This document shows positions 34,371 to 52,189 of a stretch of DNA of 64,000 bases, piece after piece (within the stretch, counting starts at the first letter, position 1; every line of letters begins with the position of its first letter). Made by a program: the position numbers and the translations under genes. The notes under the pieces are model-generated. The model was not told where the DNA came from, searched no databases, and was given only the letters and a program-made list of their open reading frames with translations. The DNA is from Myxococcales bacterium (GTDB lineage Bacteria; Myxococcota_A; Polyangia; Polyangiales; Polyangiaceae). Location of the stretch: positions 1 through 64,000 of the forward strand of contig CAHJWM010000031.1 of assembly GCA_903642325.1 (NCBI GenBank), written 5' to 3'.

Positions 34371-37300
34371 TCAGTCGCCGGACCAGGGCTTGCCGAGCCT
34401 TGCGAGTGACGCCTTGGCCTCGGCTCGATAAGGAGAGTCGCGCGGGCCAAGCCTGAGGAATTCTTCCCAATGCTTGATGGCCTCGGGCTTCAAGCCGATG
34501 GCGTGGGCCAGGAGGTTATGTGCTTCCCAGGCCCACCGTGGCGCCGGATCGTCGTTGGCCGTGAGCTCCAACGCCTTTTCGAGCTGTTCGTGGGCTGCGT
34601 CCGTCTGGTGGTTCGCGGACAGCAACTTTCCGTAGCGGAAGCGCCACGTGCCGTTGTCTGGCTGCGCTTGAATAGCGAGCTGCCATTCGCCGAGCGCTTG
34701 CTGTTCTTTTCCGAGGTCATAGTAGGCGTCGGCCAGTGACGCGTGTGCTTCGTAGCGCGACGGACGTAGCTCCAGCGCCTTCGTGAGATCAGCAATCGCA
34801 TCCTTGGCTGCGCCCTGGCGTTGGCGCAGTACGCCTCGTTGCCAATAAGCGTCGGCCAAGCCCTGGTCTAGGCGGAGCGCCTCCGCCAAAGCGTGCTCCG
34901 CTTTTGGTACGTTGCCCGCCTCATTGGCAGCCCAACCGGCGTACAACTGATACTCGGCGCGGTTGGCGTCGAGCTCCACCGCCCGCTCGAGCAAGCGCAG
35001 AGCTTCAGCCAGGCGGGTGCCCTCGATCAATAGCGCCCGTCCCAGGCAATGGTTGGTTTCTGCCGAATTGGGTCGATCGATGAGCACTTTCCGCAGCAGA
35101 TCCTCGGCATCCTTGGGGTGCCCTGCGGAGACCTTGCCGCAACCGACGCGCAGCATCAGGTCGGGATCTTTCGGGGCCTTGGCCAAGGCGCCTTCGTATT
35201 CCTTCAATGCTTCTTCGGTGCGACCGGAGGTTTCGTAAAGCAAGCCGCGCTCGAGCGCGAGCCCCGGATAATCCTTATCGACCGACCCGACTTCATCGAA
35301 CGCCTTACTCGCATCGTCGAACTTGGCGTCGCGTCGAAGCGCCACTCCCAGCTTGAACTTTGCGCCCAAGTCCTCGGAGTCGAGCGACACCGCTTGCCGG
35401 AGCTCACTCGTCGCTTCCTGATAGCGACCCTGGGACAAGGCAACCTCACCGAGGGCTTTATGGATCGCCGGTTGGTCGGGCAGCTTCGATCGAGCGTCCG
35501 CCAGCGTCTTTTGCGCGTCGTCATTGCGCCCTTGCTGGCTCTGCAAGAGCGCAAGCGCGATGTAGACGTCCACCGCCTGCGGATCGTCGCCGGGCGCCTT
35601 CAGCGCGTCGCGATACACGGTTTCGGCCTGCGCCCGGTTGCCAGAGGCCTCGAGCACGCGGCCATACCAATAAGCGACGGGTACGGCTTGCGGGTAAGTT
35701 TCGCGTAGCTTCTTAAGCATCGAGGCCGCATCCTCGGTGCGCTCGAGCGCGAGCTTCGAGCGAGCGACGCCGATCTTGGCCGACAGATCGTCGGGGTCGG
35801 CTTGGGTGCTGGCTTCGAAACGCGCTTGCGCTTCGGAATAACGCCCAGCGCGATAAAGCGCGTCCCCCAAGCCGTTCAGCGCGCGCGCGGCCTTCGGGTT
35901 GATCTTCAACGCCTCGGTGTACGCGGCTTCCGCTTGCGACATGCGCGAGCGCGCCAGGTGGATGTCGCCGAGCAAGGTCAGCGCACTCACGAGCTCGTCC
36001 GGACTCGCGGCCCCCGGGCTCGCCGTGACCGAGGCGAGCAAGCGCAACGCCTCGGCCTCGCCGGTGCGCGTCGCGCCACTCAGTCGCGCGAGCAAAATGC
36101 GCGCGCCCACGTGGTCGGGGTTCTGAAGTAGGGCATCGCGAGCGGCGCTCGCCGCCGCTTTGACGTCGCCAGCGGCGTAAGCGGCGCGCGCCACGCCGTA
36201 GGCGCTGCGTGGGCTCTTCTGAGCTGTCGCTGCGGCTTGCCAAACGGCCGCAACCGCCTTTGGGTCACCGGCTCGCAACGCGATCTCGCCGCGCAGAAAA
36301 TCGCGGTCGGGATCTTCGGGCGAGGGCGGCGGAAGCCCGTCGAAGAGCTGCTTGGCCCGCGCGATCTGACCCTCCGCCGCGGCGCGGGCGCACCTCGCAA
36401 GCAGCACATAAGCCGTATCCGAGTGGTTGGTCAGCTCGTCGAGCAATACCGAGGCCCGGGCGTGGATCTCCGGATCCGAGCCGAAGCGGAGCTCCTCGGC
36501 GTAAGCGGTGAAGGCCGCATACGCAGGCAGCTCGCGAACGCGCTTGGCGGAGGCGCGTGCCGCTTCGATGCCAGCCAATGCCTCCTTTGCCGCGGGATAG
36601 GTGTCCTTGGCCATGTCGGCGCGCGCGGCGGAGACGGTGCGGGCGACGAGCGCCGCATAATCACCCGCTTTCAGATGATCGACGATGACGTAAAAGCCGA
36701 ACGGACCTACCGTGGGCAGCAGCGCGAGTGCGGCTCCGCCGACGAACAGCACGAAGAGTCCGCCGAATAGCTGCGCGCGAGAGGCGCGTTTGCGCGGCAC
36801 GACCTCGGCCGTGTTACGGCCCGCGGGCTTCGACACGCGCGTGGGTCCGGCGCCTGCGCGAGGCTGATCTTCTTGCGGGATCGCGCCAAATTCCATGTCC
36901 TCGTCGCGTCGGGGCGCGGGCGGCGCGCCGGCTTCGATCGGCGCCTCCGCCTCGCTGCCGTCGTCGCCGAGATTGACTTCGCCATACGCGGTGCCCCCAC
37001 CACTTTGCCGCACGATGGCCGGATCGGGGGCGAAGCGAGCGCGCTCCGCGCCGCTCACCGGACTCGGATTGTCGGGTCCGGGGCCGAATAAGTCGGCTTC
37101 CTCCGCATCGGTTCCAAAGCCAGGGAGCGAAAAGCTCGGCGCGGCGCCAACCGGCAGCTCGAGGTCACCGAAGTCTCCGCCGGTGGCCGTGGGCGCCGGA
37201 GCGTTCTCCGCGGCGAGCCCGAAGTCGGGCGGAAAGCTCGGCATCTGGGAAAGCTCGAAGCCGGGCGGGGGGGGTTCCGACGGCGCGCCCGGCGCAACCG

Positions 37301-38492
37301 AGCCCGGCCGATACGAAAGGTTGGGCAGCCCGGTCGCCGAGTACGAGGGCAAGCCCGCCCCGAGCGCTGGCAGGCCCACTTGGTGCCGCTCCGGCAGAGC
37401 GACGCTGCCGTGCACGGGCGACTTATCGCCCACGAGGGGCAACCCATCATCCAAATCGAATCCCGCGTTCGAGGCCCGATGTCGGCTGTTCCCTAGAGAA
37501 GGTAACTCGATCTCGCTGCTCGCGGCGGCGCCCTGGCGCACCTCGGGCAAGCTCGCAGAAACCGACGGCAAACCGACCTCACCAAAGCGCGCGGCTGGGC
37601 TGCGGTTCTGAGCCGACGGGCTGACGCCCGTGGGGGAAAGGCTCGAGGCGCTTCCGAATGGCGGGCTCGCTACGCGCGCGCCCACCGAAGGCAGATCTAC
37701 CCCGTCCCCCGGACGGCCACCCACAATGGGCAAGTCCAATTCGAACCCGGAGCCGGCAGCGGCGGACGCGGGACGAATGGCCGCACCGGCGCGACCACCG
37801 AGCGACGGTAAGTCGAGCTCGAGCGCGGGCGTCGAACCACGTACGGCGGCGGGTAGATCGTCGAAGCCCGCGCTTGGCGGATCGGCGAAAGGCTGGGGCG
37901 CTTGCGGTGCGGGCAGGTTCGAGTCGCTCACCTCTTGCGCGCGCGGCTGAACGGCGGGCGGCGTGACGGGCGATGGCAAATCCAAATCCTCGAACGGGTC
38001 GGCGACTGAGGCCTTCTCCATCGCGCGGCGAGCCGGCATAGGCGGGGGTTTGCCAAGCGGCGCCCGTGCCTGAGGAGGAGCGGGCGCGTCGCCAAGAGCT
38101 GTCCCTTGGCGATCTTGCAAGCGAGGCCGGGGTTCGGCAGCGGGGACCAAGAACGAGCCCGGCGCAACTCCCATCATCGTGCCTTTGAGATTGACCGGGG
38201 CGGTTGGGCGCGGGGGGCCGGGAGCCGGGGCCACGCCGACCATCGTGCCTCGCATATCGGCCTTGGGCCGGGGCGCAGCCAGCGCGGGCGGCGGCGCGGA
38301 TTCCTTCTCCGCTGCGAGACCGAAAACGCCGCCGAGCACCGGGTTCGGACCGGTGCTGCGCCCATCACTCGGTGGGTCGACTTTGAATGACGTGCCGCAC
38401 TTCGGGCAGCGCATCTTCAGCCCGCTGGAAGGAATACGTCGCTCGTCGACCTGATACGGGGCCTTGCAGCCCGGGCACTCGACTTTAAACAT
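34371..38492 (-). CDS. Zinc-ribbon (MJ0042), single-TM, TPR protein
   Basis: A 1373-aa protein. Residues 1-38 are a zinc ribbon (VECPGCKAPYQ, then MRCPKCGTSFKV) with C6, C9, C29 and C32. About 45-560 is proline-, glycine- and serine-rich, with two families of short repeats: GTMVGVAP/GTMMGVAP/GTALGDAP at 82, 104 and 130, and many copies of LPSLG, LPSVG, LPIVG and LPALG between about 225 and 390. A single membrane helix lies near 573-600 (LFVLFVGGAALALLP). The last ~720 residues are tandem TPRs (for example AARALNGLGDALYRAGRYSE and ADAYYDLGKEQQALGEW). The zinc ribbon and linker are probably cytoplasmic and the TPRs periplasmic. It resembles in layout AgmX/GltJ-type myxobacterial proteins, with TPRs replacing the TonB tail. 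It is divergent from a parvulin-like gene and convergent with the OmpA/AgmX-tail pair. Confidence 0.85.
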   Translation of the reverse strand: MFKVECPGCKAPYQVDERRIPSSGLKMRCPKCGTSFKVDPPSDGRSTGPNPVLGGVFGLAAEKESAPPPALAAPRPKADMRGTMVGVAPAPGPPRPTAPVNLKGTMMGVAPGSFLVPAAEPRPRLQDRQGTALGDAPAPPQARAPLGKPPPMPARRAMEKASVADPFEDLDLPSPVTPPAVQPRAQEVSDSNLPAPQAPQPFADPPSAGFDDLPAAVRGSTPALELDLPSLGGRAGAAIRPASAAAGSGFELDLPIVGGRPGDGVDLPSVGARVASPPFGSASSLSPTGVSPSAQNRSPAARFGEVGLPSVSASLPEVRQGAAASSEIELPSLGNSRHRASNAGFDLDDGLPLVGDKSPVHGSVALPERHQVGLPALGAGLPSYSATGLPNLSYRPGSVAPGAPSEPPPPGFELSQMPSFPPDFGLAAENAPAPTATGGDFGDLELPVGAAPSFSLPGFGTDAEEADLFGPGPDNPSPVSGAERARFAPDPAIVRQSGGGTAYGEVNLGDDGSEAEAPIEAGAPPAPRRDEDMEFGAIPQEDQPRAGAGPTRVSKPAGRNTAEVVPRKRASRAQLFGGLFVLFVGGAALALLPTVGPFGFYVIVDHLKAGDYAALVARTVSAARADMAKDTYPAAKEALAGIEAARASAKRVRELPAYAAFTAYAEELRFGSDPEIHARASVLLDELTNHSDTAYVLLARCARAAAEGQIARAKQLFDGLPPPSPEDPDRDFLRGEIALRAGDPKAVAAVWQAAATAQKSPRSAYGVARAAYAAGDVKAAASAARDALLQNPDHVGARILLARLSGATRTGEAEALRLLASVTASPGAASPDELVSALTLLGDIHLARSRMSQAEAAYTEALKINPKAARALNGLGDALYRAGRYSEAQARFEASTQADPDDLSAKIGVARSKLALERTEDAASMLKKLRETYPQAVPVAYWYGRVLEASGNRAQAETVYRDALKAPGDDPQAVDVYIALALLQSQQGRNDDAQKTLADARSKLPDQPAIHKALGEVALSQGRYQEATSELRQAVSLDSEDLGAKFKLGVALRRDAKFDDASKAFDEVGSVDKDYPGLALERGLLYETSGRTEEALKEYEGALAKAPKDPDLMLRVGCGKVSAGHPKDAEDLLRKVLIDRPNSAETNHCLGRALLIEGTRLAEALRLLERAVELDANRAEYQLYAGWAANEAGNVPKAEHALAEALRLDQGLADAYWQRGVLRQRQGAAKDAIADLTKALELRPSRYEAHASLADAYYDLGKEQQALGEWQLAIQAQPDNGTWRFRYGKLLSANHQTDAAHEQLEKALELTANDDPAPRWAWEAHNLLAHAIGLKPEAIKHWEEFLRLGPRDSPYRAEAKASLARLGKPWSGD

Positions 38493-38724
38493 ACCTGTGA
38501 ACTCTTATCAGCACTGCTTGGAAGTTACGAATAGCCCGGCGTTCGAGCTCGAGGCCGACCTGATGCCCCGCACTTGGTAGCAGCCCGCAGCCCGCGAAAA
38601 GCCGGGACGTTCCGCTCAGCCGCTCGTCAGTGTTAGCAGCAAGAGCCGCCGGTTGTCGCGACCCAAAGCCGGTTCCGGAATCCGCGCCGCTCGGGCGGAA
38701 TTTCGTGCTACGGCGCGACGCAGC

Positions 38725-39309
38725 ATGCAGCGCTCGACGGCGGCACTTCTGGGGCTCGGATTCATGGCGGCTTTGCTCGGGATAATCCTGATCGCGCACG
38801 ACAGCCCGAAGAAGCCAGAGCACGCGGCTGCGTCCGTCTCCAAGTCCGCGCCCAGTGCGCTTGCCTCCGCACCGCTCACCGCCGGCCGAGCGCCATTAGC
38901 TCTCGACGCGGGGGGAGCCGACGACGCCGGCGCATTGCCTTTCACCGAGGGTTTCGAGACCTTCCCAGACGGTGGTAAAGTGCCCGATCTGCCGGATTCT
39001 GCGCCGTCAGAGGTCAGCTTCGGCGTCGTACAATTTGCTTATCAGGGTTCGCAGTTTGCCGGCTCGGATGCGCGTCCAAAGGAACAAGCCAAACAGAAGG
39101 CCAACGAAATCCTGGAGCTGGCCAAGCACGATTTCGTGGCCGCGGTCGCCAAAGGGGACCGCGGCTCATCGTCGGACGCGGGGCGTATCCCACGCGGCGT
39201 GCTCGAGCCACCCATTGAATATGTTCTGTTCATGCTGGACAAAGGCGCGCTCAGCCCAAGCGTGCTCGATACTCCACGCGGGTTCTGGATCGTGCGTCGC
39301 AACGACTGA
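38725..39309 (+). CDS. Membrane-anchored parvulin-like (PpiC) protein, probably degenerate
   Basis: A 194-aa protein. LLGLGFMAALLGIILIAHD near residues 8-26 is an N-terminal membrane anchor. Then comes a proline- and alanine-rich linker. The C-terminal ~95 residues follow parvulin order: FGVVQFAYQG (first strand), RPKEQAKQKANEILELAKHD (first helix), VAAVAKGDRGSSSDAGRIPR (the DP-x-GG/PRG loop) and ALSPSVLDTPRGFWIVRR (final strands). Family members act as periplasmic peptidyl-prolyl isomerases or chaperones. The histidine-rich entry of typical parvulins is replaced by Val-Val-Gln, so activity is doubtful. The ATG at 38725 is preferred to the earlier, arginine-rich starts. It is divergent from the zinc-ribbon protein and followed by two giant TPR genes on the same strand. 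Confidence 0.6.
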   Translation: MQRSTAALLGLGFMAALLGIILIAHDSPKKPEHAAASVSKSAPSALASAPLTAGRAPLALDAGGADDAGALPFTEGFETFPDGGKVPDLPDSAPSEVSFGVVQFAYQGSQFAGSDARPKEQAKQKANEILELAKHDFVAAVAKGDRGSSSDAGRIPRGVLEPPIEYVLFMLDKGALSPSVLDTPRGFWIVRRND

Positions 39310-39430: not shown

Positions 39431-42400
39431 ATGTCGACTAATAGCCGGTTGCACATCTCCCAGGTCCACTCGTCGGCGCCCGATCCGACGGTGGTCGCAG
39501 CGGCGGTTGGCCGCTTGCGAGCCGAGCACGATGCCGCTGTCGATGGCAAAACCCGCGCGCTTTTACGACACGAGATCGGCGTGCTCGAAGAGCGATTGGA
39601 CGACGCAACCGAGAGTGCACGCGACCAGTTGGCCGCGGTCAGCGCCGAGCCCAATTTTCAGGAGCCACTCGAGCGCCTGATCGGGATCCTCGAACGCCGT
39701 CAATCGCACAAGAATCTGGGCCGTCTGCTGGAGCGCTTGGTGAGCCTCGCGACGCGACCCGAGGAGCGCGCCCGTGCGCTGCTGGACGAGGCCTTTTACC
39801 TGTTGGAGCACGAGGACGACATCGGCAATGCGCGCACGCGGCTCGAACAGGCCGTGGAAGACATGCCGCGGGACGCGAGCCTGTGGCTCGCCCTCGAGCT
39901 CGTGGCGACTAAGCTCGGCGACGCGGAGTTGCGCGAGCGTGCTCTTTTATCTCGAGCCGCGCTGACCAACGATGTTCACTGGAAGGGCCTCTTACTTCTC
40001 TCGCTGGCCGAGCAGCGCAGCAGCTCCGGTGACCACGAAGCCGCCGAGCGTGTGCTCGAGGAAGCCCTGAGACTCGGCAGCCCGGCGACCTTCGACTGCC
40101 TCGTCGCGCTGAGCGAGCTCAGCCGAAAAACAGGCGATAACGCGCTTGGAATGCGGGCCGAGTCGCGAATCGGCGATGCGATTTCGGCGTCTTTGGCGGA
40201 TTCTGTTCACGGGGACGCGCTCGGGATACCCGAGCACCGCCGCACGCTCGCTCACGCCGCCGAGGCATGGCTGACTGCCGCTGAGCATGCGCGTCAAGGT
40301 GGCGAGCACGCCCGGGCCGTCGAGCTGCTGGAGCGCTCGCTACTGGCTGCGCCCAGCGACGCCTTGTCGCTGTATGCCCGCTTGCACGCCGCCGACGCCG
40401 CCGGCGATACTGCGAGCGCTGCGCGCATTGCTCGAGCGGAGCTCGACCGAGGAGTCACCGGGCAAGCGGCCGCTTCACTCTGGCTTCGCATCGCCGAAGC
40501 GGCCGCCAGTGAAGGCGATGGCGCGGCCGCCTTGGCGGCCGCCAACCAGGCCCTCGCCCACGACGCAACGAGCATCGCGGGGCGGGCCCTGCAGCTCGAT
40601 TTACTGAGTACGGCCGACGATCCGCAGGGCTATGCCTCGGCCCTGGAGGCCGCGGCCGAGACATTTCCGAGCGAGAACGCGAAAGCCCGATTTTACCTGC
40701 TCAGCGCCGATGTCTGGGCAAGACAATGCCAGGACTCGCAAGGGGCGCGCGCCGCGCTCTCGCAGGCTGGCATGTATGGCGCCTCGCCGGAGGTCGTCGC
40801 GCGCTTGGCGCGCTCGCTCTCGGCGCTCTTGAACGACGGCGCTTGGTACGAAGAGGCCACTCGTCGGCTGATCGCCCAAGGCGCAACCGAAGCCGAATAC
40901 AGCGGGCTGTGGTTCGAATTGGCTCGCGCTCGAGCGCTCCGTGGCGAACGCCTGACGACCGCGCAGGCCTTGAGCGGGCTGGCTGCCGCACCCGAAGGTC
41001 ACTGGCTCGGCAACGCTCTAGCGGCGTACTCGCTCGACCTATTACCCGAGGGGGCGGCAAATCATGGCCAGGGGCCGGACAGAGAAGCGCCCAGCGACGT
41101 AGCGCTGTCGGCATTGGCAGGCGAAGAGAGCGACCCGGTGACGGCCGGGGCGATACGCACGATCTTGGCGCTGCGCGCGATCGGTAGGGCTGACGAAGCG
41201 TTTGCTCGGCGAGAGCTCGCACAGCTCCATGGCGAAGATCCCTCGAACGTCGTCGTGGCGCGAGCGCTGGTCGCGCTGGAGAGGAGGGCCGACAATCAGA
41301 CCGCCGCCGCAGGCGCGCTCGCGGCGACGGCAGGGGTGGTGGCTGACGTCGAGCTCGCCGCCTCGCTCGAAATCGAGGCAGGCATCGCCTTCTGGCAGGC
41401 GGGCGCTCAGCAAGCGGGCCTGGAACGCTTCAAGGCGGCCGCGAGCCAGAGCCGTGCCGGCACTGCATTGCTCGGCTGGGCGCTCGCGGGGGCCGAGTCG
41501 AGCGACCTTTCCGGGCGCCGCCGAGCATTGGAAGCGGCCTCCGAGAGCGCTCCTGACCTCGCGGCCTTAGACCGCTTTTCACTCGAGCTCGGGCGCGGCG
41601 GTGATTTAGACGTCGCGCGCGAGGCGCTGACCACGGCGCTCGAACAACCGGGCAGTGAGTTGCACGAGGCGGCGCTGCTCGCTCGCGCCCTGTGGAGTCC
41701 GAGCGGCAGCGAAGAACAGGAACGCGGGCTCGCTCTGCAAGGGCTAGCTGAGCTCGAAGGCGCCGCCGCGTTGGTCCGCGGCGCCGCCTATGGCATTGAG
41801 CTCGCACGCACCCCGAACGGCGCAGACCGCACCCTGTCGGAAGCGGCGCGCAGCTGGGCGCTGGTCGATCTAGACCTAGCTCCTGCGTTGGAATGGTTGG
41901 GCGCGGCCATGCACAGCGGGGATGTGGACGACGAAATCGCAGCGCGCTTGGCGCTCGCGGAGCGGCTGTCCGCGCCGCTCGCCGCGACCTTCGAAGCATC
42001 GGCGGCGCTCGTTGCGCTGCTCTCGGGCCATGGCACTAGAAAGGCGCTTGCGGGCGGCGAGCCTGCGGCCAAGCTCGCCAACCTCGAGTTGGCGGCCCCT
42101 GGCGGCGACCCGCGTCGGCGCGCGCGTGCGCTGCTCGATGCGAGCCAGAGCCTCGGCGACGATAGTCTAGGCGTGGTGACGGCCTTGGCCGGTTACAATC
42201 AGCTGGCGTACGGGGATTTTGCCGCGGCGCTCTCCTCGTTCCGGCAAGTCGTCGCGGCACACGCTGAAGACGTGTTTGGCTGGGAGGGTCTGCGCGCCGC
42301 GGCGGACGCCACTGGGGATCGCGGCTTGCTCGCCGAAGCGTACGCGGCGCTCGGTGATGCGGTGAGCGACCCGGCCCGCGGCAGCGACTTCTGGGAGCAA

Positions 42401-44194
42401 GCAGCCGGCATTTTACTGGACGAATTTGGAGACACGACACGCGGCGAGTTTGCGTTGACGCGCGCGGTCGAGCGCGACGTTCGGCGATTTGCGGCCTTTG
42501 ATCGACTCTTCCGTCTGGTCCGTGAGCGCAAGGACGGGTCGCGTCTACTGGAGCTCATCGCTCGCCGGCTAGAGGTAGCCGAAGACGCGGATGAAATCGC
42601 CAAGCTGTTCTGGGAACGCGCCCGCGCGCTGCGCACGGCGGGTGACCGCGATGGCGCGCTGTCTGCACTCGAGAATGTACAGTTGCTGGAGCCGGACCAC
42701 GTGGGCGCTCTCGCGCTCTCGGGCGAAATTTACATCACGCTCGGGCGCTTCGCAGAAGCTGCGGAGAACCTGGCCCGGCTGGGTGCACTCGAGGAGGCGC
42801 CGGCCCAGCAGCGCCTGATGAGCGGCATTGCCGCCGTCGATTTGTACGAGCATAAGCTGGATGACGCGTACGCGGCGCTCGAGGTGCTCGCCAATCTGCA
42901 TCGCGCGAATCTCAGCACGCTCGCGGTTCGCGAACGATTGGCGCGAGCGGCCGCGCGCGCAGAGTCTTGGCTGCAAGCGACCGAAGCCCTCGAGCTGTTG
43001 ATGAACGAGCGCGACAGCTCGGCCGGCCGCGTCCAAGCCGCCCGATTGGCGATGGTGATTCACCGCGATCGACTGCACGATGTCGCACGTGCCGAGGCCG
43101 CCGCGACGCGCCTACTCGAGGAGCTGCCGGAAGACGGAGAGGCGCTCGATTTGGTCTTGAGCGACGCATTTCCGAAAAGCGCCACGCGCTCACTGCTGGA
43201 AAATGGGCTGTCCCGTCTGACGGAAATGCTCGAGCAAAATCCCATGAAACCCGAGCGCGTCGAACGCCTGGCACGGATCGCGGGCTACCTGGGTCAGGCC
43301 CCTTTGCGGCAAGCTGCGCTCGGTGCGCTGATCGCCCTCGGGGTGTCGTCGGAAGGCGTCGAGCAGGAGCTCGCGCGCATCGATCAACGCGTGGCCAACG
43401 TGCCACGCATCGCGATCCACGACCGCGCGCTACCTGATCTCGCTGACCCCGAAGACCGTGGCCCGATCGCCGAGCTCATGCGCGTCATGGCCACGACCAT
43501 CTCCGAGGAGCTCGGTCCAAGCCTGAGCGCTTTTGGCGTGGGCAAGAAGGAACGCGTCGACGCCCGTGCCGGGCTGCCCGTGCGCAATGAGATAGCGGCC
43601 TGGGCCGGCGCGCTCGGCATCGGCGAATTCGAGCTGTATATCGGCGGCACCGACGCGGATGCGATTGTCGCGGTCGCGAGTGAGACCCCGGCGCTGGTAC
43701 TGGGCTCCGCCGTCACGGCGCCGCTCTCGCCACGGCATCGCCAGGCTGTCGCACGCGAGCTGTTTGCGCTGCGGCGCGGTACGACCGTGCTCAGGCACCG
43801 AGATTCGACCGAAATCGGAGCGCTGGTGGTCGCTACGTGTCGCATCGCCGAGGTCACCATACCCTCCCCGGCGTACGCGATGCTGCCCGAGTTTCAGCGG
43901 TCACTCGGCAAAGCGCCGCGCAAAGTCAGAAAACTTTTACCGAACCTGGCCCAAGCCGTGCTCGCCTCCGCTCAAGATCCGATCGCCTGGTCACGCGCCG
44001 CGGTTTCGAGCCTGGACCGTATGGCCGCACTGGCGGCCGGCGATGTCTCGTGGGTGCTTGCATCGGGTGGGCGCGAGCGCGGGGCTCTCGACCTGTCCAA
44101 TGAAGCGGCCGGGCGCGCGCGGCGCTTGCTCGCGTTCGTGCTTTCGCCGACCTACCTCGAGCTTCGAGAACAACTCGGGATGGGCGTCAAATGA
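39431..44194 (+). CDS. Giant TPR protein 1 of a coupled pair (1587 aa)
   Basis: An alanine-rich helical protein with no signal peptide or membrane helix, so cytoplasmic. The bulk (about 60-1330) consists of degenerate TPRs, for example EAAERVLEEALRLGSPATFD, HARAVELLERSLLAAPSDAL, DGALSALENVQLLEPDHVGA and ARAEAAATRLLEELPEDGE. The last ~230 residues are a separate domain (NEIAAWAGALGIGEFELYIG, LSPRHRQAVARELFALRRGT, SLGKAPRKVRKLLPNLAQAV) that resembles the C-terminus of the next protein. No enzyme motif is visible. The ATG at 39431 follows a 121-base gap after the parvulin-like gene. The stop overlaps the next start (ATGA), so the two proteins are made together and may form one scaffold. Function is unknown. 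Confidence 0.8.
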   Translation: MSTNSRLHISQVHSSAPDPTVVAAAVGRLRAEHDAAVDGKTRALLRHEIGVLEERLDDATESARDQLAAVSAEPNFQEPLERLIGILERRQSHKNLGRLLERLVSLATRPEERARALLDEAFYLLEHEDDIGNARTRLEQAVEDMPRDASLWLALELVATKLGDAELRERALLSRAALTNDVHWKGLLLLSLAEQRSSSGDHEAAERVLEEALRLGSPATFDCLVALSELSRKTGDNALGMRAESRIGDAISASLADSVHGDALGIPEHRRTLAHAAEAWLTAAEHARQGGEHARAVELLERSLLAAPSDALSLYARLHAADAAGDTASAARIARAELDRGVTGQAAASLWLRIAEAAASEGDGAAALAAANQALAHDATSIAGRALQLDLLSTADDPQGYASALEAAAETFPSENAKARFYLLSADVWARQCQDSQGARAALSQAGMYGASPEVVARLARSLSALLNDGAWYEEATRRLIAQGATEAEYSGLWFELARARALRGERLTTAQALSGLAAAPEGHWLGNALAAYSLDLLPEGAANHGQGPDREAPSDVALSALAGEESDPVTAGAIRTILALRAIGRADEAFARRELAQLHGEDPSNVVVARALVALERRADNQTAAAGALAATAGVVADVELAASLEIEAGIAFWQAGAQQAGLERFKAAASQSRAGTALLGWALAGAESSDLSGRRRALEAASESAPDLAALDRFSLELGRGGDLDVAREALTTALEQPGSELHEAALLARALWSPSGSEEQERGLALQGLAELEGAAALVRGAAYGIELARTPNGADRTLSEAARSWALVDLDLAPALEWLGAAMHSGDVDDEIAARLALAERLSAPLAATFEASAALVALLSGHGTRKALAGGEPAAKLANLELAAPGGDPRRRARALLDASQSLGDDSLGVVTALAGYNQLAYGDFAAALSSFRQVVAAHAEDVFGWEGLRAAADATGDRGLLAEAYAALGDAVSDPARGSDFWEQAAGILLDEFGDTTRGEFALTRAVERDVRRFAAFDRLFRLVRERKDGSRLLELIARRLEVAEDADEIAKLFWERARALRTAGDRDGALSALENVQLLEPDHVGALALSGEIYITLGRFAEAAENLARLGALEEAPAQQRLMSGIAAVDLYEHKLDDAYAALEVLANLHRANLSTLAVRERLARAAARAESWLQATEALELLMNERDSSAGRVQAARLAMVIHRDRLHDVARAEAAATRLLEELPEDGEALDLVLSDAFPKSATRSLLENGLSRLTEMLEQNPMKPERVERLARIAGYLGQAPLRQAALGALIALGVSSEGVEQELARIDQRVANVPRIAIHDRALPDLADPEDRGPIAELMRVMATTISEELGPSLSAFGVGKKERVDARAGLPVRNEIAAWAGALGIGEFELYIGGTDADAIVAVASETPALVLGSAVTAPLSPRHRQAVARELFALRRGTTVLRHRDSTEIGALVVATCRIAEVTIPSPAYAMLPEFQRSLGKAPRKVRKLLPNLAQAVLASAQDPIAWSRAAVSSLDRMAALAAGDVSWVLASGGRERGALDLSNEAAGRARRLLAFVLSPTYLELREQLGMGVK

Positions 44195-47100
44195 GCGACC
44201 CGACGGAACCCAACCGACCGGCGAGCGGCACGGGTCGCGCCGCTCAGACCGCCGAAGAGCGCGCAGCCGAGCAAGAGTTGGAAAACGACGCGCTGCTCGA
44301 CTCGTTGCTGTTCGAGGATGCGGCCGCATTGCCGGCACCGGCTGAGCCGGAGCTGCCGTCGAACATCGCCAAGCTGCATCAGCCGTCGAACCACCAGTAC
44401 TCGGAAGACGACGTGACGGTGGTCGGCCGAGGCGAGGACCTGTTCGCGGAAGTGTCGAGCGACGATGGCACGACCGGCCTCGAAGATTTAGCAAGCTCCG
44501 ACATCGACGAGCTTCTGTCCAGCATGCCGGCGAGCCCGATCGAGAATGTGGATGCGTGGCCGTATGACGCGCCCGTGCAGCCGAGCGCGCGCTTGCCCGA
44601 CGTCTCGGCAGGGCTGCGCTTACCTGCCCCGCCACGCCCGATCGCCCGCAGCACGTCGGGCGCTCCGAGACCGGAGGCGGTTGCCACGTCGACAGAAGCG
44701 CCACCTGCGTCAGCAGGCCCCGGCTCTCTGCTTGAATCGTTAGAGCCTGATCCGGCGAGCAAGCCGAACGAAGACGAAGAAGAACAAACGCGTTTCTTCC
44801 TCAGGGACAGCCCCGTCAGCGTGATCGCGCCCGGCGGGCCGCGGCCCGAAACAGACGAAGAGCACACGGTACTGCTCCATCCGTTACAAGTGGAGCAGGG
44901 ATCCGGCCGCGAGGGACCCGAACCCAGCCGCATGCCAGAGGTCGAGCGGGCCAGTCGAGTTTCCGCGCATTCGGAAGCCGAGCCGACCCCTGGCTGGACA
45001 GCCCCCCCCGCAACGTCGCTGTTGGACGCTGAATTCGAGCTGTTCTCGGGGCTGCCGAACGGCTTTAGCGCGGCGGATCACAAGCTACTCGACGAGCCCG
45101 CGCAGGCGAGCGATGAAGTGGCGCAGGGTTTGCTCGAGACGCAATCTTCGCCTTTGGATTGGCCCGACGAGCGCCCTGCACGCGCGCACTTAGGCGGCAA
45201 TAGAGAGGCCTTCGCCATGCGCGCCGAGTGGCTGGAGCGTGAGGCACATGCGGCCAGCAATCCTCAAGCCCGCGCGCGTGCCCTGACCATCGCCAGTGAG
45301 CTGTGGGCTCTGACCGGTGATCTGCCTCGGGCTCGAGATGCGGCCGGTGAAGCCAGCGCAATTCCGCGCGCGCAGGGCATGGCGGCGCGGCAAATGCGCG
45401 CGCTGGCGGCTGCCGAAGGTGACTTCAAAGCCGTCGCGCCGGCGCTCGAGATGGAGATTCGCGGAGCGGCCACGGCTGAAGCACGCGTGCACGCGGCCTA
45501 CCTTAGCGCAGAGGTGTATCGACTGGCATTGAACGACGAAGCGACGGGCAAAAAGAAGCTCGACCTCGCCGTTCGAGCCCAGCAAGACGATCCGCGCGCC
45601 CATGTCGCCAAATTAAGCGAGCTGCTCGGCAAAGGGAGCGGCCCGGTGCGGATGCGTTTCCCCGATTCCGAGCCGCTGAGTGAGCTCAGCCATGCCTGCG
45701 AAGAGCTGCTGCGCCTGCGCGGAGGCGCACCCTCCGCCGGGAGCGCGCAGGCGGTCGGCCCACGCGCTGCTTTCGAGGAAGCGCGGCGCGCGCTATCGAC
45801 TGGTGATCGCCGGAGGGCGGCGGACGCGCTCGCAACGCTTGCCGTCGTGCCGGGGCTCGGTCACGCTTGCGCTTGGCTGTCGGCGTCGCTGCTTGGAGCA
45901 GACCCCAGCACCAGAGCCCGGGCAATCCTAGAGCTCGGAGCGCTGGCGGAACGGGGCGGCGGCCGCCTTGCCCGTCGCGCCCTCGTGGCTCGCGCCCTGG
46001 AGGAGGGCAACGCACAGGTGATCCGTGAGGCTGTCTCCGGCGCGGTAGGCGCGCAAACCTTTGCCGCGTCGGACCGGCTGGCACTCGCCGCGCTCATCGG
46101 GCTCACTCCGCAGGGGCTCGAAACGACGATCGAAGACGTCGCCGCCGACCCGGCGCTCCGGCCCTTAGCGGCCGCATTCGTTGCGGCAGCTCCGAGCTCG
46201 ACGCTCGATGTCCGGTCCGGAAGCGAAGCCAGCCGTGCCGAACAACACCTGGGGCATGCCCTGGTCTCGCCGCCTGCGGGTGGGAGCGGGCTCGAGCACC
46301 TGCTTGGCTATGCGCAGGCGTTCCGGGCCAGCCATCCGGAGAGTCCTCTCGCGCGGTTTCTTTCGCTGGAGCTTGCGCGTGTCTCACGGAGCGCGAGCCA
46401 GGTGGCGCTGGCCCTGAGCGAGTGGCCCCGAACAGACGAAGGCCCGCAGCGGACGCGGGATGAGCGGCTGGCGGTCGCGCTCGTGCATGAGCTCGCCGGC
46501 GAGCAAGCTTCCGCGGTTCGGGCATATCGACAAGCCCTCGACCTGGACCCAAGCAACGAGCCCGCGGTGCGCGCGCTCTCGAAGGCCGTGCCCGAAGAGA
46601 CCGCGGATCTGCTCTTACGGCTCGCCGATCACGTGCAGACGTCGGAGCGGGGCGCGCTGATCTTACTGGAGGCCGCCCTTCGCCTCGGTTTAGAGCCGCG
46701 GGAAGCGTACGATTCCCTCGTCGAGCGCGCGCGGCTGGCCGCTCCGGACTTGCCGCTCAGCTACCGCATGGCGGAGGATGCCGCACGTCGACGAGCCGAT
46801 CACGGCGAGCTACTCGTCGCCGTCCGTGCGCGTCGAGAAGCCGCTGATGACCCGGTCGAGCGCTCGCTCGACCTGGTCAGGGAAGCCTTGCTCCTGGCCG
46901 ACACGGATTTGACCTCGACGGAGCGCCTGCTGAACGAGGCCCGAAAGGCACGTCCCGACGATCTCGCCCTGCAGGAGCTTGCAGAGCGCACGGTCCCAAC
47001 CGAAGACGTGGAACGCGCCGCCTGGCGCGAGGCAATCGCCGAAACCAGCCAGGGAGCGCTGCGCGGCCGGCTGTTCGCAGAAGCGGCGCTGGAGCGCGCA

Positions 47101-49725
47101 CGCGCTTTCGATCCGGAAGGCGCGGCGCGTGACGCCTACTTGGCCGTCGAACACGGGGCCGGCGGGCTCACCCCCATTGCCGCTGAGCGCTTCGCGGCGG
47201 CGGGACCTGGCGCAGCGCGGCTCGCGTCATCTCTGCTCGACCGGGCGCGGGCCAGCGAGGAGCCCGCTGAACAGCGGCAATTATACGAGCGCCTGAGCCA
47301 CATCGATCGCTCTCGGGGCGACACTTCGAGCGCGCTTTTGTGGCAGATCGCGATTTTGGAACAATCGCCCGACAATCTGCCAGCCCTCCGTCGTTTGGAG
47401 CACGCGTACATCAACGCCGATCGCCTCGATGAGCTCGAGTCGATCGCGGCAAGCTTGGCCCGCACACTCGACGCTTCCGAGGCCAACGCCCACGCACGCC
47501 TGACCGCGCATTTGCGGGTGAGGCGCGGCGCGTGGCTCGAGACGCGTGACATGGCGGAGATCGCGATTGCGCATGCGCCGAGCGAGCTCTGGGCGCTGCG
47601 CACACTCAGCGCGCACGCGCGCGTCACCTTTGACAGCGAGCTCGGGCTGCGCTGTGACGAGCGGCTATTCGAGCTCTCTGAGCGCCCGCTCGATAAGGGC
47701 ACGCTTGCGTTACGGGCCGCCGAAGCCGCCGTTCTGCTGGAGCGAGGGCCAGATACGAAGCGGCTGTTGGCGGCGGCGCTGGAACAAGTGCCGGATCACT
47801 GGCTCGCGCTCAGCACGCTTGCGGAGGTCTTGGAAGCAAGCGAAGAATATCCGGCTGCCGCTCGAGCGCTGGAGCGCGCGGCCCAGGCTAGCAACGTGCC
47901 GGCGCACCAGGTCAGCGCCTGGTATCGAGCGGCCGTGCTCTGGCTGGACCGGGTCGGGGACGGCGAACGCGGACGCGCCGCGCTCGAATGCGCGGTGACG
48001 GTAGATTTTGGTCACGAAGACGCGGTCGTGCGCCTGCAGGCGTTGTACGCAGCCGTCGGCGAGCGTCAAAAACTCGCTGAGCTCTTGCAGCGTCGACTCG
48101 AGCGCACGACCGATCCGGAGGAGCGGATCGCGATCGAAGTCGCCCGCGGCCGCGCGCTCGCGGAGGCCGGCGAACGGGACGCAGCCAAAGCCGCCCTCTC
48201 ATCGGCGCTCGACGCAAATCCAGACCACGCCGAGGCGCTCGAGGCTTTCGCCGGTCTTTGCTTGGCTGAAGGCGATTGGGGCTCGGCGGAGCGTGCCCTG
48301 ATTCGCCTCGCTCGTCACACCGGTGACCCTGAACGCCAGGCGCAAATTTATCGCCGCCTGGGTGAGCTTTACGACACTGCTCTGCCGAACCCAGAGCGCG
48401 CCGAGCTCGCCTACAAGGAGGTTCTGAAGCGCGCGCCGGAGGACGGCGACACGGTAGCGCGCTTGGTTCAAGTTCATGGTCGGCTCGGCGACACGACGAC
48501 TGCGCTGTCGCTGCAGACGGATCTATTGGCGCGCGCCCACACGCCGGAAGAAAAGCGCGCGCGGACGCTGGCTTTGGCGATCGTCGAGGAACAAATCGTC
48601 GGGGACCGTAAGCGCGCCGAGCTCACTTTCGACAGGGCACGCAAAGAGTGGCCGCACGACAGCACCGTGCTGCGCGCCATCGCAGAGTTCCAACGGCGCG
48701 GCGGAGAGACGCGCTCCACGCAAATGATGCTCGACCGCGCGGCCATGGACGCCCGCCGAGCACTCGCCACCGGGCGCTTCGAGCCGAGCTTCTTCGAAGT
48801 ACTGGCGACCGTGGCGGAGCTTAAAAATACCGACGACTCCTGGCTCGTGGCCCGCGCCACGCTCGCCGCCCTGCACGGTGAGGAGCTGCCGGTCCCGGCG
48901 GCGGGTCCGGTTGCCGGAGATCCCCGGCTCGATGACCTGCTTACGCCCGACCTAGTCAGTCCGCCGCTCCGCGCGCTCTTGAAAAAAAGCGGCGATATCT
49001 TGGATGCGGCTTATCCGGTCGACCTGGGCGCTTTGAACGCCGCGCCGCTGCCGGCGTCGTCGGCCGCCTTCGAAAGCTACGTGCAGCAGGTCGCTGCCGC
49101 CTTCGGCCTTCGTGGCCTAGAAGTGCTTGCCTCGCGCACGCTTGGACCGGTGTGTGTGCCCGTGAGCACCGCGCCACCGCAGATCGTGTTCGGGCAGGCG
49201 CTCTTGGACAGCGAGGACGACGCCGCCCGTTACTTCCTGCTCATCCGTAGCCTGAAGATCCTGCAGGGGAGCGCCGCCGCGTTGTCGCGCACCGCGGCGG
49301 TCGAGCTCTGGCCCGTGCTGGCAGGCTTTCTGAATCTGCTTGCGCCCAGTTGGATCCCCCAGGGCGTAGACGCCAAAAAGCTCGCCGAGACGCAGAGCCG
49401 AATCTCGGCGGTGATGCGTAGGAACTTGGACGACGACGTCCCGGTGCTGGCCCTCGAAGTGATCGGTGCCATTGGCAACCGCGCGAGCTTGCTGGCTACG
49501 GCCCTTTATCAATGGGGCAATCGCTGCGCGCTTTTGTCAGCGGGCTCACTGGTCGCTTCCTTGCGCGGCGTCGCGCTAGCCAGCGGCCAGCCGGGCCCGC
49601 CACCGCCCGAAGGCGCCGAGCGCGTTAAATGGATCGTGCGGAATGCGGAAGCGCGGGACCTTGCGACGTTCGCCGTCAGCGAGCAATACGCGGAGGCGCG
49701 CTCGCGTTTGGGCTTGAGCCGTTAG
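44191..49725 (+). CDS. Giant TPR protein 2 of a coupled pair (1844 aa)
   Basis: Residues 1-320 are acidic and proline-rich, with three acidic-Thr sites: EDDVTVVGR (T76), DEEEQTRFF (T200) and DEEHTVLLH (T226). About 330-1540 are TPR-like helices (ASAVRAYRQALDLDPSNEPA, AALERAAQASNVPA-type, LIRLARHTGDPERQAQIYRR, NPERAELAYKEVLKRAPEDG). The last ~280 residues form a domain like that of the preceding protein (AAFGLRGLEVLASRTLGPVC, RYFLLIRSLKILQGSAAALS, SRISAVMRRNLDDDVPVLAL). No signal peptide. Its ATG overlaps the stop of the first gene by four bases, showing translational coupling. It ends 22 bases before the convergent end of the PBP1C gene. Function is unknown; a multi-partner cytoplasmic scaffold is likely. 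Confidence 0.8.
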   Translation: MSDPTEPNRPASGTGRAAQTAEERAAEQELENDALLDSLLFEDAAALPAPAEPELPSNIAKLHQPSNHQYSEDDVTVVGRGEDLFAEVSSDDGTTGLEDLASSDIDELLSSMPASPIENVDAWPYDAPVQPSARLPDVSAGLRLPAPPRPIARSTSGAPRPEAVATSTEAPPASAGPGSLLESLEPDPASKPNEDEEEQTRFFLRDSPVSVIAPGGPRPETDEEHTVLLHPLQVEQGSGREGPEPSRMPEVERASRVSAHSEAEPTPGWTAPPATSLLDAEFELFSGLPNGFSAADHKLLDEPAQASDEVAQGLLETQSSPLDWPDERPARAHLGGNREAFAMRAEWLEREAHAASNPQARARALTIASELWALTGDLPRARDAAGEASAIPRAQGMAARQMRALAAAEGDFKAVAPALEMEIRGAATAEARVHAAYLSAEVYRLALNDEATGKKKLDLAVRAQQDDPRAHVAKLSELLGKGSGPVRMRFPDSEPLSELSHACEELLRLRGGAPSAGSAQAVGPRAAFEEARRALSTGDRRRAADALATLAVVPGLGHACAWLSASLLGADPSTRARAILELGALAERGGGRLARRALVARALEEGNAQVIREAVSGAVGAQTFAASDRLALAALIGLTPQGLETTIEDVAADPALRPLAAAFVAAAPSSTLDVRSGSEASRAEQHLGHALVSPPAGGSGLEHLLGYAQAFRASHPESPLARFLSLELARVSRSASQVALALSEWPRTDEGPQRTRDERLAVALVHELAGEQASAVRAYRQALDLDPSNEPAVRALSKAVPEETADLLLRLADHVQTSERGALILLEAALRLGLEPREAYDSLVERARLAAPDLPLSYRMAEDAARRRADHGELLVAVRARREAADDPVERSLDLVREALLLADTDLTSTERLLNEARKARPDDLALQELAERTVPTEDVERAAWREAIAETSQGALRGRLFAEAALERARAFDPEGAARDAYLAVEHGAGGLTPIAAERFAAAGPGAARLASSLLDRARASEEPAEQRQLYERLSHIDRSRGDTSSALLWQIAILEQSPDNLPALRRLEHAYINADRLDELESIAASLARTLDASEANAHARLTAHLRVRRGAWLETRDMAEIAIAHAPSELWALRTLSAHARVTFDSELGLRCDERLFELSERPLDKGTLALRAAEAAVLLERGPDTKRLLAAALEQVPDHWLALSTLAEVLEASEEYPAAARALERAAQASNVPAHQVSAWYRAAVLWLDRVGDGERGRAALECAVTVDFGHEDAVVRLQALYAAVGERQKLAELLQRRLERTTDPEERIAIEVARGRALAEAGERDAAKAALSSALDANPDHAEALEAFAGLCLAEGDWGSAERALIRLARHTGDPERQAQIYRRLGELYDTALPNPERAELAYKEVLKRAPEDGDTVARLVQVHGRLGDTTTALSLQTDLLARAHTPEEKRARTLALAIVEEQIVGDRKRAELTFDRARKEWPHDSTVLRAIAEFQRRGGETRSTQMMLDRAAMDARRALATGRFEPSFFEVLATVAELKNTDDSWLVARATLAALHGEELPVPAAGPVAGDPRLDDLLTPDLVSPPLRALLKKSGDILDAAYPVDLGALNAAPLPASSAAFESYVQQVAAAFGLRGLEVLASRTLGPVCVPVSTAPPQIVFGQALLDSEDDAARYFLLIRSLKILQGSAAALSRTAAVELWPVLAGFLNLLAPSWIPQGVDAKKLAETQSRISAVMRRNLDDDVPVLALEVIGAIGNRASLLATALYQWGNRCALLSAGSLVASLRGVALASGQPGPPPPEGAERVKWIVRNAEARDLATFAVSEQYAEARSRLGLSR

Positions 49726-49747: not shown

Positions 49748-52189
49748 CTAGTCACTGGAACCATCGCTTGCGATGCTTCCGCTCACGTCACGAACGCGCT
49801 CGCGTACCTCGAACGCGATAAGCTCGCTCGAGGCGCCACTGGCCGCGGCCACACGCACGCGGTGCGAGCCGGGCGACAGTCGCCAGGGTAAGCGGAAGGG
49901 GGCGGCTAGGGTTGCGAGCTCGTGTTCGTCGACGAAGAACGTCAGGTGGTCACTTGCCGCGCGCGCTTCGAGTACGATTTCCTGCTCAGCGCGCCGCCCG
50001 GACTCGATCACGAAGGTTGCGCGCGGGCTCGGAAAAATCAGCTCTGGAGCGGCATTTGCTGACAACTTTGACGGCTCCGGGCAGCGTGCCGAGAACTCCT
50101 CGGGGGCGATCGGCCGCAGCGCCTGGCGCGCGAAATTCCGATACTCGCGCGGATAGCGCTCGAACGTGCGGACAATCGTCGTCTTGCAGGCCGGCCCCGC
50201 GCGCAGCATCGTCTCGGGATCCAGCGCCACGAGCTCGTGCATGTCACAGGCATGGCGCGGCTCACGCCCCGGGACGAACCACTCCTTTCGCCGATGAGGA
50301 CAAAGGTCCGAGGCGAGGTCTCCGCTCAGCTGGCATACCTCGGCCGTGATCAAGCCCGTATAATCGAGGAGCGGCGCGTGTTCCCGACCGCGCATGGCCG
50401 CCAGCATGACCTCGTGAAAGAGCGGTCCGGCCCCCGTGACTCCGGTCGAATTGATCATGGGCGTACCGTCGAAATTCCCGGCCCACACCGCCACCGTCAC
50501 CTCGCGCGTGAAACCGACCGTCCAATTGTCGCGAAAACCCTTGGAAGTACCGGTTTTCGCTGCCACTCGGAATGGGAAGGCGAGTGGGCCGCCAATGCCG
50601 AATTCGGGCGAGCGCGCCAAATCATCGGCCAAAATGTCGGTCAAAATGCGCGCAATGCGCGGGTCGATCACGGACGTCACGCGCTCGGCGGCGCGCGAAA
50701 GCTCCGCTCCATTGCCGAGCAGCGCGCGACGATAAAAGCGGAGGGGCAGAAAATCACCGCCCCGCGCGAGCATGGCGTAGGCCTGCGCGAGCTCGCTGAG
50801 CCTCACCTCCCCGTCGCCGAGCGCGAGCGCGGCGCCGTAGTGCTGGGCGCTGTTTCGCAGGGAGCTAAAGCCGGCGCGATGCAGCAGCGCGAGCACTTGC
50901 TCCGGACCGACTCGCGAGGCCGTATACACCGCGGGCACATTCAAGGAGTTGGCCAACGCGTCGCGCAGCAGCACGGGACCATGAAACCTGCCATCGTAGT
51001 TCTTCGGGGAGTACACGCCGTCGGACGTAGGAAGCCCGAGCTCCAAATCCGGTAGGCGCGTGGCGGCCGTCATGCCCAGGCTCGCCATGGCGGCGGCGTA
51101 CACGAAAGGCTTGAGCGCCGAGCCCGGCTGCCGCAGGGCCCTCGCGCCGTCGTTTTGGCCCAAAGCCTCGACCGCGTAAAAATCCGGAGACCCGACGTAA
51201 GACAGCACCTCACCGCTGACATTTTCCACGACCACCACGGACATGGCGCTGGCGCCGTGATCGGCGGCGGAGCGGACCGCCCGGCGCGATAGCTCCGACA
51301 CCTCTCGTTGCAGCCCAGAATCGATGGTGGTCGTGAGCCGCTGCACGCGCTCCCCGCGCAGCTCGGGCGCCAGCGCCCCGGAGACGAGCCCTTGCATCAG
51401 ATGCTCGGTCCCACCTTGCGCCAAAGCGCGCATCAAGTGCAGCGGTTCGAGCTCTGCGTTACGGACCGCCTCCGCCGGAGCCGAGCCGTGCGCGAGCATG
51501 CGGCGGAGCACGCGATCCCGCCGCCTGAGTAGGGCATACGTGCCACGTGCCGGGTCGTACAGGGTCGGCCCGCGCGGGATCGAGACCAATAGCGCCGCCT
51601 CGGCTAGGTCCAACTTTGCGGCGGGCTTGTCTAAGTAATAGCGACTCGCCGCCTCGATGCCTCGCACATTGGGCCCGAATTCCACCCGATTCAGGTACGC
51701 CTCGAGCACTTGCGATTTGCTCAAGCTGTGTTCGATGCGGAGGGCAATCGCAAGCTCCCGCCACTTGCCCCAAAAGGTGCGCGGGCGCGGCACGACCGAA
51801 CGCGCCAGCTGCTGGGTCAAGGTGCTGGCGCCCGACACGAGCTTGCGTTGCCAGAGCGCCTGCCCCGCCGCGCGGAGCATGGCCAGCGGATCGATGCCCG
51901 GGTGCTGATAGAAGCGCGCGTCCTCGGCAGCGAGCAACGCCGGCACCACGAGCTCGGACAGCTCGCCGAGGCTCACTCGGCTAGACAATTGACCGTCTTT
52001 GCTGCGGAGCTCACGAATCAGCTGACCATCGCGGTCCAGCACCTGGGTGCTGGTGTCTGATCCAGGCTCGAGCAACGCGCTCGGCATGTCCTCGCGCGCC
52101 GCACACGAAATCAGGGCCAAGAGCGGCACGAAATAAACGGTAATTGCGACCAATAGCAGACGCTTTCCGGCCTTTTTCCGGGTACGCAT
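49748..52189 (-). CDS. pbpC: Penicillin-binding protein 1C (bifunctional)
   Basis: About 813 aa. One N-terminal membrane helix (RLLLVAITVYFVPLLALISC). The GT51 glycosyltransferase spans about 60-240, with AAEDARFYQHPGIDPLAMLR, GASTLTQQLARSV and AYLNRVEFGPNVRG. The transpeptidase has SALK (S357, K360) in RQPGSALKPFVYA, SLNVP and the KTGTS box. The C-terminal beta domain (from about 700; VLEARAASDHLTFFVDEHEL) is the BiPBP_C module of class 1C. It polymerises and crosslinks murein in the periplasm and probably repairs it. The ATG at 52189 overlaps the stop of the alpha-2-macroglobulin gene; a GTG one codon upstream is also possible. As in E. coli, PBP1C is paired with the macroglobulin. Confidence 0.95.
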   Translation of the reverse strand: MRTRKKAGKRLLLVAITVYFVPLLALISCAAREDMPSALLEPGSDTSTQVLDRDGQLIRELRSKDGQLSSRVSLGELSELVVPALLAAEDARFYQHPGIDPLAMLRAAGQALWQRKLVSGASTLTQQLARSVVPRPRTFWGKWRELAIALRIEHSLSKSQVLEAYLNRVEFGPNVRGIEAASRYYLDKPAAKLDLAEAALLVSIPRGPTLYDPARGTYALLRRRDRVLRRMLAHGSAPAEAVRNAELEPLHLMRALAQGGTEHLMQGLVSGALAPELRGERVQRLTTTIDSGLQREVSELSRRAVRSAADHGASAMSVVVVENVSGEVLSYVGSPDFYAVEALGQNDGARALRQPGSALKPFVYAAAMASLGMTAATRLPDLELGLPTSDGVYSPKNYDGRFHGPVLLRDALANSLNVPAVYTASRVGPEQVLALLHRAGFSSLRNSAQHYGAALALGDGEVRLSELAQAYAMLARGGDFLPLRFYRRALLGNGAELSRAAERVTSVIDPRIARILTDILADDLARSPEFGIGGPLAFPFRVAAKTGTSKGFRDNWTVGFTREVTVAVWAGNFDGTPMINSTGVTGAGPLFHEVMLAAMRGREHAPLLDYTGLITAEVCQLSGDLASDLCPHRRKEWFVPGREPRHACDMHELVALDPETMLRAGPACKTTIVRTFERYPREYRNFARQALRPIAPEEFSARCPEPSKLSANAAPELIFPSPRATFVIESGRRAEQEIVLEARAASDHLTFFVDEHELATLAAPFRLPWRLSPGSHRVRVAAASGASSELIAFEVRERVRDVSGSIASDGSSD

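Follow-up and report, generated by a model that had tools for sequence, protein, structure and literature searches.

Within the window, the whole stretch of 64,000 nucleotides that was analysed, two very large genes lie in tandem on the forward strand, where T1 (39431..44194, 1587 aa) is followed by its paralogue T2 (44191..49725, 1844 aa), and the stop codon of the first overlaps the start codon of the second in the tetranucleotide ATGA (44191..44194, +). Each gene encodes a giant protein with a TPR array and a C-terminal domain that is referred to below as the pseudo-M48 domain. A preliminary description of this DNA had reported the two gene lengths and the ATGA overlap and had characterised both proteins as mostly degenerate TPRs; the open reading frames were confirmed at 39431-44194 and 44191-49725, and the TPRs detected by Pfam in T1 and T2 are indeed scarce and low-scoring. 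It is most likely that T1 and T2 are translated together off one transcript, and, judged from the ATGA coupling alone, they may be produced at a fixed stoichiometry. No signal peptide or transmembrane segment was seen in either protein by hydropathy scan only, in which no 19-residue window exceeded 1.65. Pfam matches besides TPR (RE_XamI, Xin, Sirohm_synth_C and others) occurred as scattered singles and were taken as noise, and NCBIfam matches to MamA, PilW and PrsT, mostly under cut-off, were treated as generic TPR cross-matches. The N-terminus of T2 (approximately residues 1-335; 44191-45200, +) is acidic and weakly conserved, and contains DDVTVV, EEQTRF and EEHTVL. The pattern [DE][DE]xTx[VLIFMR], which was picked post hoc from the window's own T2 N-terminus, has 30 occurrences in 45 T2 N-termini as opposed to 3.7 in shuffles, a count that includes near-duplicate rows and comes from fewer than half of the sequences. 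It is possible that these motifs are phospho-Thr/FHA sites.

Divergent from T1 is a gene (34371..38492, -) for a protein of 1373 aa with an N-terminal Zn-ribbon, an apparent single transmembrane segment and TPRs, which lies close to T1 in 12 of 38 loci and whose product is a possible candidate for a membrane partner of T1 and T2. Directly upstream of T1 (38653..39309, +), and present in 16 of the 38 loci, is a gene whose product appears to be anchored in the membrane by its N-terminus and matches PPIC-type rotamases; this product may possibly be an accessory or membrane partner. Convergent to T2 are two genes (49748-57882) that, on reading of the sequence, resemble those for PBP1C, a penicillin-binding protein of class C type, and for alpha-2-macroglobulin; this gene pair was seen beside T2 in near relatives only.

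From two motif pairs aligned by eye, it had been proposed that T1 and T2 share a C-terminal domain of approximately 230-280 aa, and pairwise comparison of orthologue profiles with hhalign bears this out. The T1 and T2 C-termini match over the entire length of both profiles (E 9.6e-21, 252 columns, 21% identity), and a second orthologue set, taken from genome-record loci, gave E 9.1e-16 and a score of 113, whereas 20 column shuffles scored no higher than 21. Both by-eye motif pairs lie within the hhalign alignment, the second with a doubt of one residue in register. The orthologues were drawn from relatives of the window's genome and from 39 further loci, mostly Polyangiaceae and Myxococcales MAGs together with two Polyangium isolates; a contig search with the T1 sequence alone gave no match, and the 39 loci were obtained with the orthologue alignment as query. 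The refined bounds of the end domain are residues ~1334-1587 in T1 and ~1577-1844 in T2 (255-270 aa). The homology extends further than the terminal domain first described, to a block of ~650 aa that comprises a conserved TPR stretch and the end domain, starting at residue ~919 of T1 (42185..44191, +) and ~1175 of T2 (47713..49722, +). The two copies of this block are collinear in a single register (E 8e-44, score 357, with the next-best register at 111), and conservation in T1 peaks inside it, in the TPR stretch at residues 950-1170. BLASTP between T1 and T2 misses the C-terminal match and finds the adjoining TPR stretch (T1 981-1127, T2 1237-1383, E 2e-10).

The end domains of T1 (~254 aa; 43430..44191, +) and T2 (~270 aa; 48898..49722, +) were modelled by AlphaFold with mean pLDDT values of 94.4 and 96.8, where the T1 model used 68 rows from T1 and T2, and the T2 model 32 rows from T2 only. 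Prior to any fold search, it had been noticed that 'PALVLGSAVTAPLSPRHRQAVARELFALRRG' resembles the strand-loop-helix of M48 peptidases with a broken HExxH. In VIA-align, the lists for both models are topped by M48/M56 zinc peptidases, including BlaR1, at Z 6-8.6, bearing in mind that Z values of 7-8 are also met with models without clear relatives. The T1 model matched HtpX (Z 7.7, 87 aligned, 3.2 A), 3c37 (6.6), Ste24 (6.3) and BepA (6.1), and the T2 model matched 3c37 (Z 8.6, 176 aligned, 4.9 A), ZMPSTE24, Ste24 and BepA (8.3 each) and HtpX (7.9, 94 aligned, 2.5 A). Foldseek gave no significant match with either model (E >0.2), and its matches to nuclear receptors, terpene synthases and other helical folds were dropped, since the top ranks in VIA-align are held by metallopeptidases only. 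When the domain profile was compared by hhalign with 19 M48 peptidases from the window's class, it matched with E 3.7e-4 and a score of 35.2 over 176 columns, as opposed to scores of at most 16.1 in 20 shuffles and 11.4 for the reversed profile; singly, the profiles of GltI, T2 and T1 gave E values of 2.1e-4, 1.4e-3 and just 0.065, respectively. This alignment places RELFA on HELGH and SSLDR on RQADR. The end of T1 and T2 is therefore, on the predicted models and the profile match, a degenerate M48 (gluzincin-fold) peptidase domain, as opposed to the new fold that the preliminary description had suggested. It resembles the M48 peptidases HtpX, Ste24/ZMPSTE24, BepA and 3c37 in its predicted fold, in the position of the former active-site helix and in keeping the (A)DR, and differs from them in that HExxH and the third Glu ligand are gone, in lying below Pfam detection and in being fused to the ends of TPR giants. 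Among 68 domain sequences, no Pfam family covers the T1/T2 ends, and PF01435 (M48) is absent from the matches at E up to 1; a sequence search of the PDB gave nothing better than E 0.03, and literature searches did not find the domain described.

In T1, RELFA (43754..43768, +) replaces HExxH, the first His being Arg and the second Ala with the Glu kept, and VSSLDR (44003..44020, +) replaces the M48 ExxADR, so that the third zinc ligand is gone and DR is retained. In T2, the corresponding replacements are IRSLK (49243..49257, +), with Arg for Glu and Lys for the second His, and YQWGNR (49507..49524, +). At the His, Glu and His positions, Arg, Glu and Ala or Gly are found in 31 of 36 T1 rows, and any residue, Arg and Lys in 30 of 32 T2 rows (the Arg alone in 32 of 32), the register of T1 against T2 at this helix being uncertain by one residue; in GltI rows, the first of these positions is Lys or Arg. 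The residues listed for the third-ligand position in T1 and T2 rows do not include Glu, and the Asp/Asn-Arg that follows is mostly kept. It could be argued that the domain is still an active metallopeptidase whose metal site has diverged, given the M48-like fold, the HExxH Glu retained in most T1 rows and the His at the first position in 8 T2 rows. This reading is highly improbable and was rejected because the metal ligands are lost: HExxH occurs in 0 of 122 aligned domain copies, the second His is Ala, Gly or Lys in nearly all rows, and the residues listed for the third ligand do not include Glu in either set. Since HExxH and the third Glu have been lost and conserved basic residues, R1442 in T1 and R1686 and K1689 in T2, stand where metal ligands were, the domain is best read as a pseudopeptidase, in which these basic residues may make up a pocket that binds an acidic ligand.

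The tandem arrangement of T1 and T2 is retained in relatives, as had been anticipated. In a first set of relatives, T2 comes immediately after T1 wherever enough DNA is present, and 31 loci of the genome-record set have T2 following T1, of which 27 show, by reading, a short overlap such as ATGA or GTGA. Beyond the order, a T1-like gene followed by a T2-like gene is found in three members of the class (L183-L185), and further genomes in the class sample have two copies of the domain on the same strand, separated by 5-7 kb. In genome G130, T1 and T2 are on different contigs and T2 is truncated by a contig end, so that this genome was not counted as a case of unlinked genes. The whole neighbourhood of the window (Zn-ribbon TPR gene, T1, T2 and the next genes) also appears on a 287-kb contig of a genome labelled only as belonging to the same phylum (L088, G229:C1:238000-257999), a contig that is likely misbinned or mislabelled.

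The end domain is also found well beyond the pair. It is present in all 116 genomes sampled from the window's class, at 1 to 15 copies per genome, and in 75 of 141 genomes sampled from the phylum (46 of 112 outside the class, by our own count). The copies that were read form the extreme C-terminus of TPR proteins from ~740 to 4100 aa in length. Searching the window's genome with a combined domain profile (A3) gave six copies at E <1e-6, namely T1, T2, a giant of 3818 aa and open frames of ~1889, ~1778 and ~787 aa. The domain is thus not a module peculiar to the pair and absent from ordinary TPR proteins, as had been supposed, and is carried throughout the phylum by giants of the GltI type and by further TPR proteins. 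Short carriers of ~740-790 aa recur across several families, and one of 743 aa (L085:6221-8449) is encoded immediately downstream of a Ser/Thr kinase gene. The window's genome also encodes another giant TPR protein, of 3780 aa, without the pseudo-M48 end (L041:1374-12716, G000:C7), and a 715-aa protein with no obvious TPR origin (L053:8012-10159, G000:C2), which ends in ALLEFYASEDFISLRRALVG and matches the end of the domain weakly (E 0.009).

GltI is the largest component of the myxobacterial gliding machine. Several of the giants that carry the domain lie among homologues of gliding genes. At one locus (L179), the gene order is an FHA protein (NCBIfam GltG, E 9e-150), a TPR lipoprotein, a 3919-aa giant with the domain at residues 3714-3915, and a Zn-ribbon gene (GltJ, E 3e-37); at another (L180), a 4076-aa giant with the domain is followed by a GltJ-like gene; and in the window's genome, the 3818-aa giant (L042/L136) is preceded by matches to GltC (E 2e-88), GltE (E 7e-24) and GltG (E 1e-94). 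All of these neighbours score under the NCBIfam equivalog cut-off, and are therefore homologues and not certified equivalogs. A genome near M. xanthus was sought in the sample by GltJ above the curated cut-off and none was found, so that the identity of the giants is drawn from synteny in relatives. In M. xanthus, the gene order is gltD-E-F-G-H-I-J, and GltI, a TPR protein of 4132 aa, lacks a signal peptide (PMC3169522). On this gene order, the domain-bearing giant of 3,800-4,100 residues between gltG and gltJ homologues is the gliding scaffold GltI. It has been described that GltI is a large scaffold which, with GltG, couples the Agl motors to the MreB track (PMC13104615), and another review terms GltI (as AgmK, 3812 aa) transmembrane (PMC9120999).

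GltI (AgmK; MXAN_4863 in M. xanthus) is like T1 and T2 in having TPRs and no signal peptide, and its last ~650 aa, including the pseudo-M48 end, are collinear with the block of T1 (E 8e-33) and of T2 (E 1.7e-38) by hhalign. The pseudo-M48 end as a feature of GltI was found in this analysis and is not taken from the literature. GltI differs from the pair in its length, of ~3.4-4.2 thousand aa as opposed to 1.6-1.8 thousand, and in being a single gene among glt genes with a clade of its own in the domain tree, whereas T1 and T2 are a coupled pair with no glt or agl genes among the neighbours of their locus. The GltJ (AgmX)-like genes found here open with a Zn-ribbon, as does the divergent neighbour of T1, which also has an apparent transmembrane segment; unlike GltJ, this neighbour contains TPRs, and its 25 best-matching families do not include GltJ.

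In an unrooted tree of 89 domain copies, T1 forms one clade (96/90), T2 of the order forms one clade (100/99), and GltI forms a separate clade (100/99) with one 743-aa protein within it. A branch (98/95) places T1 with GltI and an 1887-aa paralogue on one side, and T2 with T2-like proteins from other orders on the other. Since both T1 and T2 group more closely with other proteins than with one another, the duplicated pair of the preliminary description stands as a case of ancient paralogy and not as a simple local duplication.

Taken together, we propose that T1 and T2, translated together, form a GltI-type scaffold in the cytoplasm, probably as a heteromer, with the pseudo-M48 end as docking module, a reading to which we give a probability of about one in two. 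Computation directly shows the gene linkage, the predicted fold, the loss of the active site, the homology of T1 with T2 and their relation to GltI, whereas the role as a cytoplasmic scaffold, the heteromer, the docking and the machine served are inferred. Here, T1 and T2 would be ancient paralogues of the GltI family, each with a long TPR solenoid and a catalytically dead M48-type end, which would assemble together or act at a fixed ratio on one target. A scaffold of T1 and T2 in the cytoplasm is the most likely arrangement because of the homology to GltI and the coupling of the genes, and it may hold an envelope-associated machine together, in the way described for GltI, which connects GltG and the Agl motors with MreB. 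The pseudo-peptidase end would serve as the docking module, in which the former active-site region keeps its shape and basic residues take the place of metal ligands (in T1 and GltI, the first His is replaced by Arg or Lys; in T2, the Glu is replaced by Arg and the second His by Lys), an arrangement that would suit an acidic or phosphorylated peptide. Against a scaffold of this kind are the putative partner genes, retained in just 12 and 16 of the 38 loci, and the differences from GltI in gene neighbourhood and length noted above.

It is also possible, if not favoured, that T1 and T2 serve as a general hub for protein-protein contacts and are not tied to any one machine, where the end domain is a solenoid cap or dimerisation element spread by repeated duplication. 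Such a role would agree with the widely varying length of the TPR proteins that end in the domain and with its numerous copies per genome, whereas the clade-specific conserved residues at the former active site and the single collinear block of 650 aa suggest something more, and the linkage of T1 and T2 is retained across the order and found elsewhere in the class. That T1 and T2 act in quality control of the envelope as a pair of adaptors or chaperones, by analogy with BepA, appears unlikely; here, the TPRs would bind clients and the dead M48 domain would present or withhold them. BepA, a periplasmic protease/chaperone, likewise combines an M48-type domain with TPRs, and its TPR pocket cups the protease and contacts BamA/LptD (PMC7950410). 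BepA is among the best fold matches of the T1 and T2 ends, and PBP1C- and alpha-2-macroglobulin-like genes are the next downstream in the window. However, BepA is active and exported, with few TPRs and the reversed domain order (PMC7950410), and it works outside the cytoplasm, whereas T1 and T2 show no signal peptide; the downstream gene pair is confined to near relatives, and the entire block is present in GltI, a motility scaffold.

Beyond the proposed GltI-type scaffold, a broader and doubtful extension is that the pseudo-M48 domain acts as a reader that docks many giant TPR scaffolds of the phylum on a cytoskeleton or motor, its dead active site having become a basic pocket that accepts an acidic or phosphorylated tail. 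T1 and T2 would then be the core of a second, class-wide and undescribed envelope machine parallel to Glt/Nfs.

While the GltI-like kind of scaffold and the M48 fold are known, what is new is a pair of genes, probably co-translated, that has been retained throughout the order and also outside it, and the unannotated pseudopeptidase end that this pair has in common with GltI. The end of GltI would accordingly be a dead zinc-peptidase domain, relatives of which are found in every genome sampled from the class, two of them in a conserved pair that is probably co-translated. As a folded domain of ~260 aa, this module may provide a small target for structural, binding and point-mutant tests of how such scaffolds are attached.
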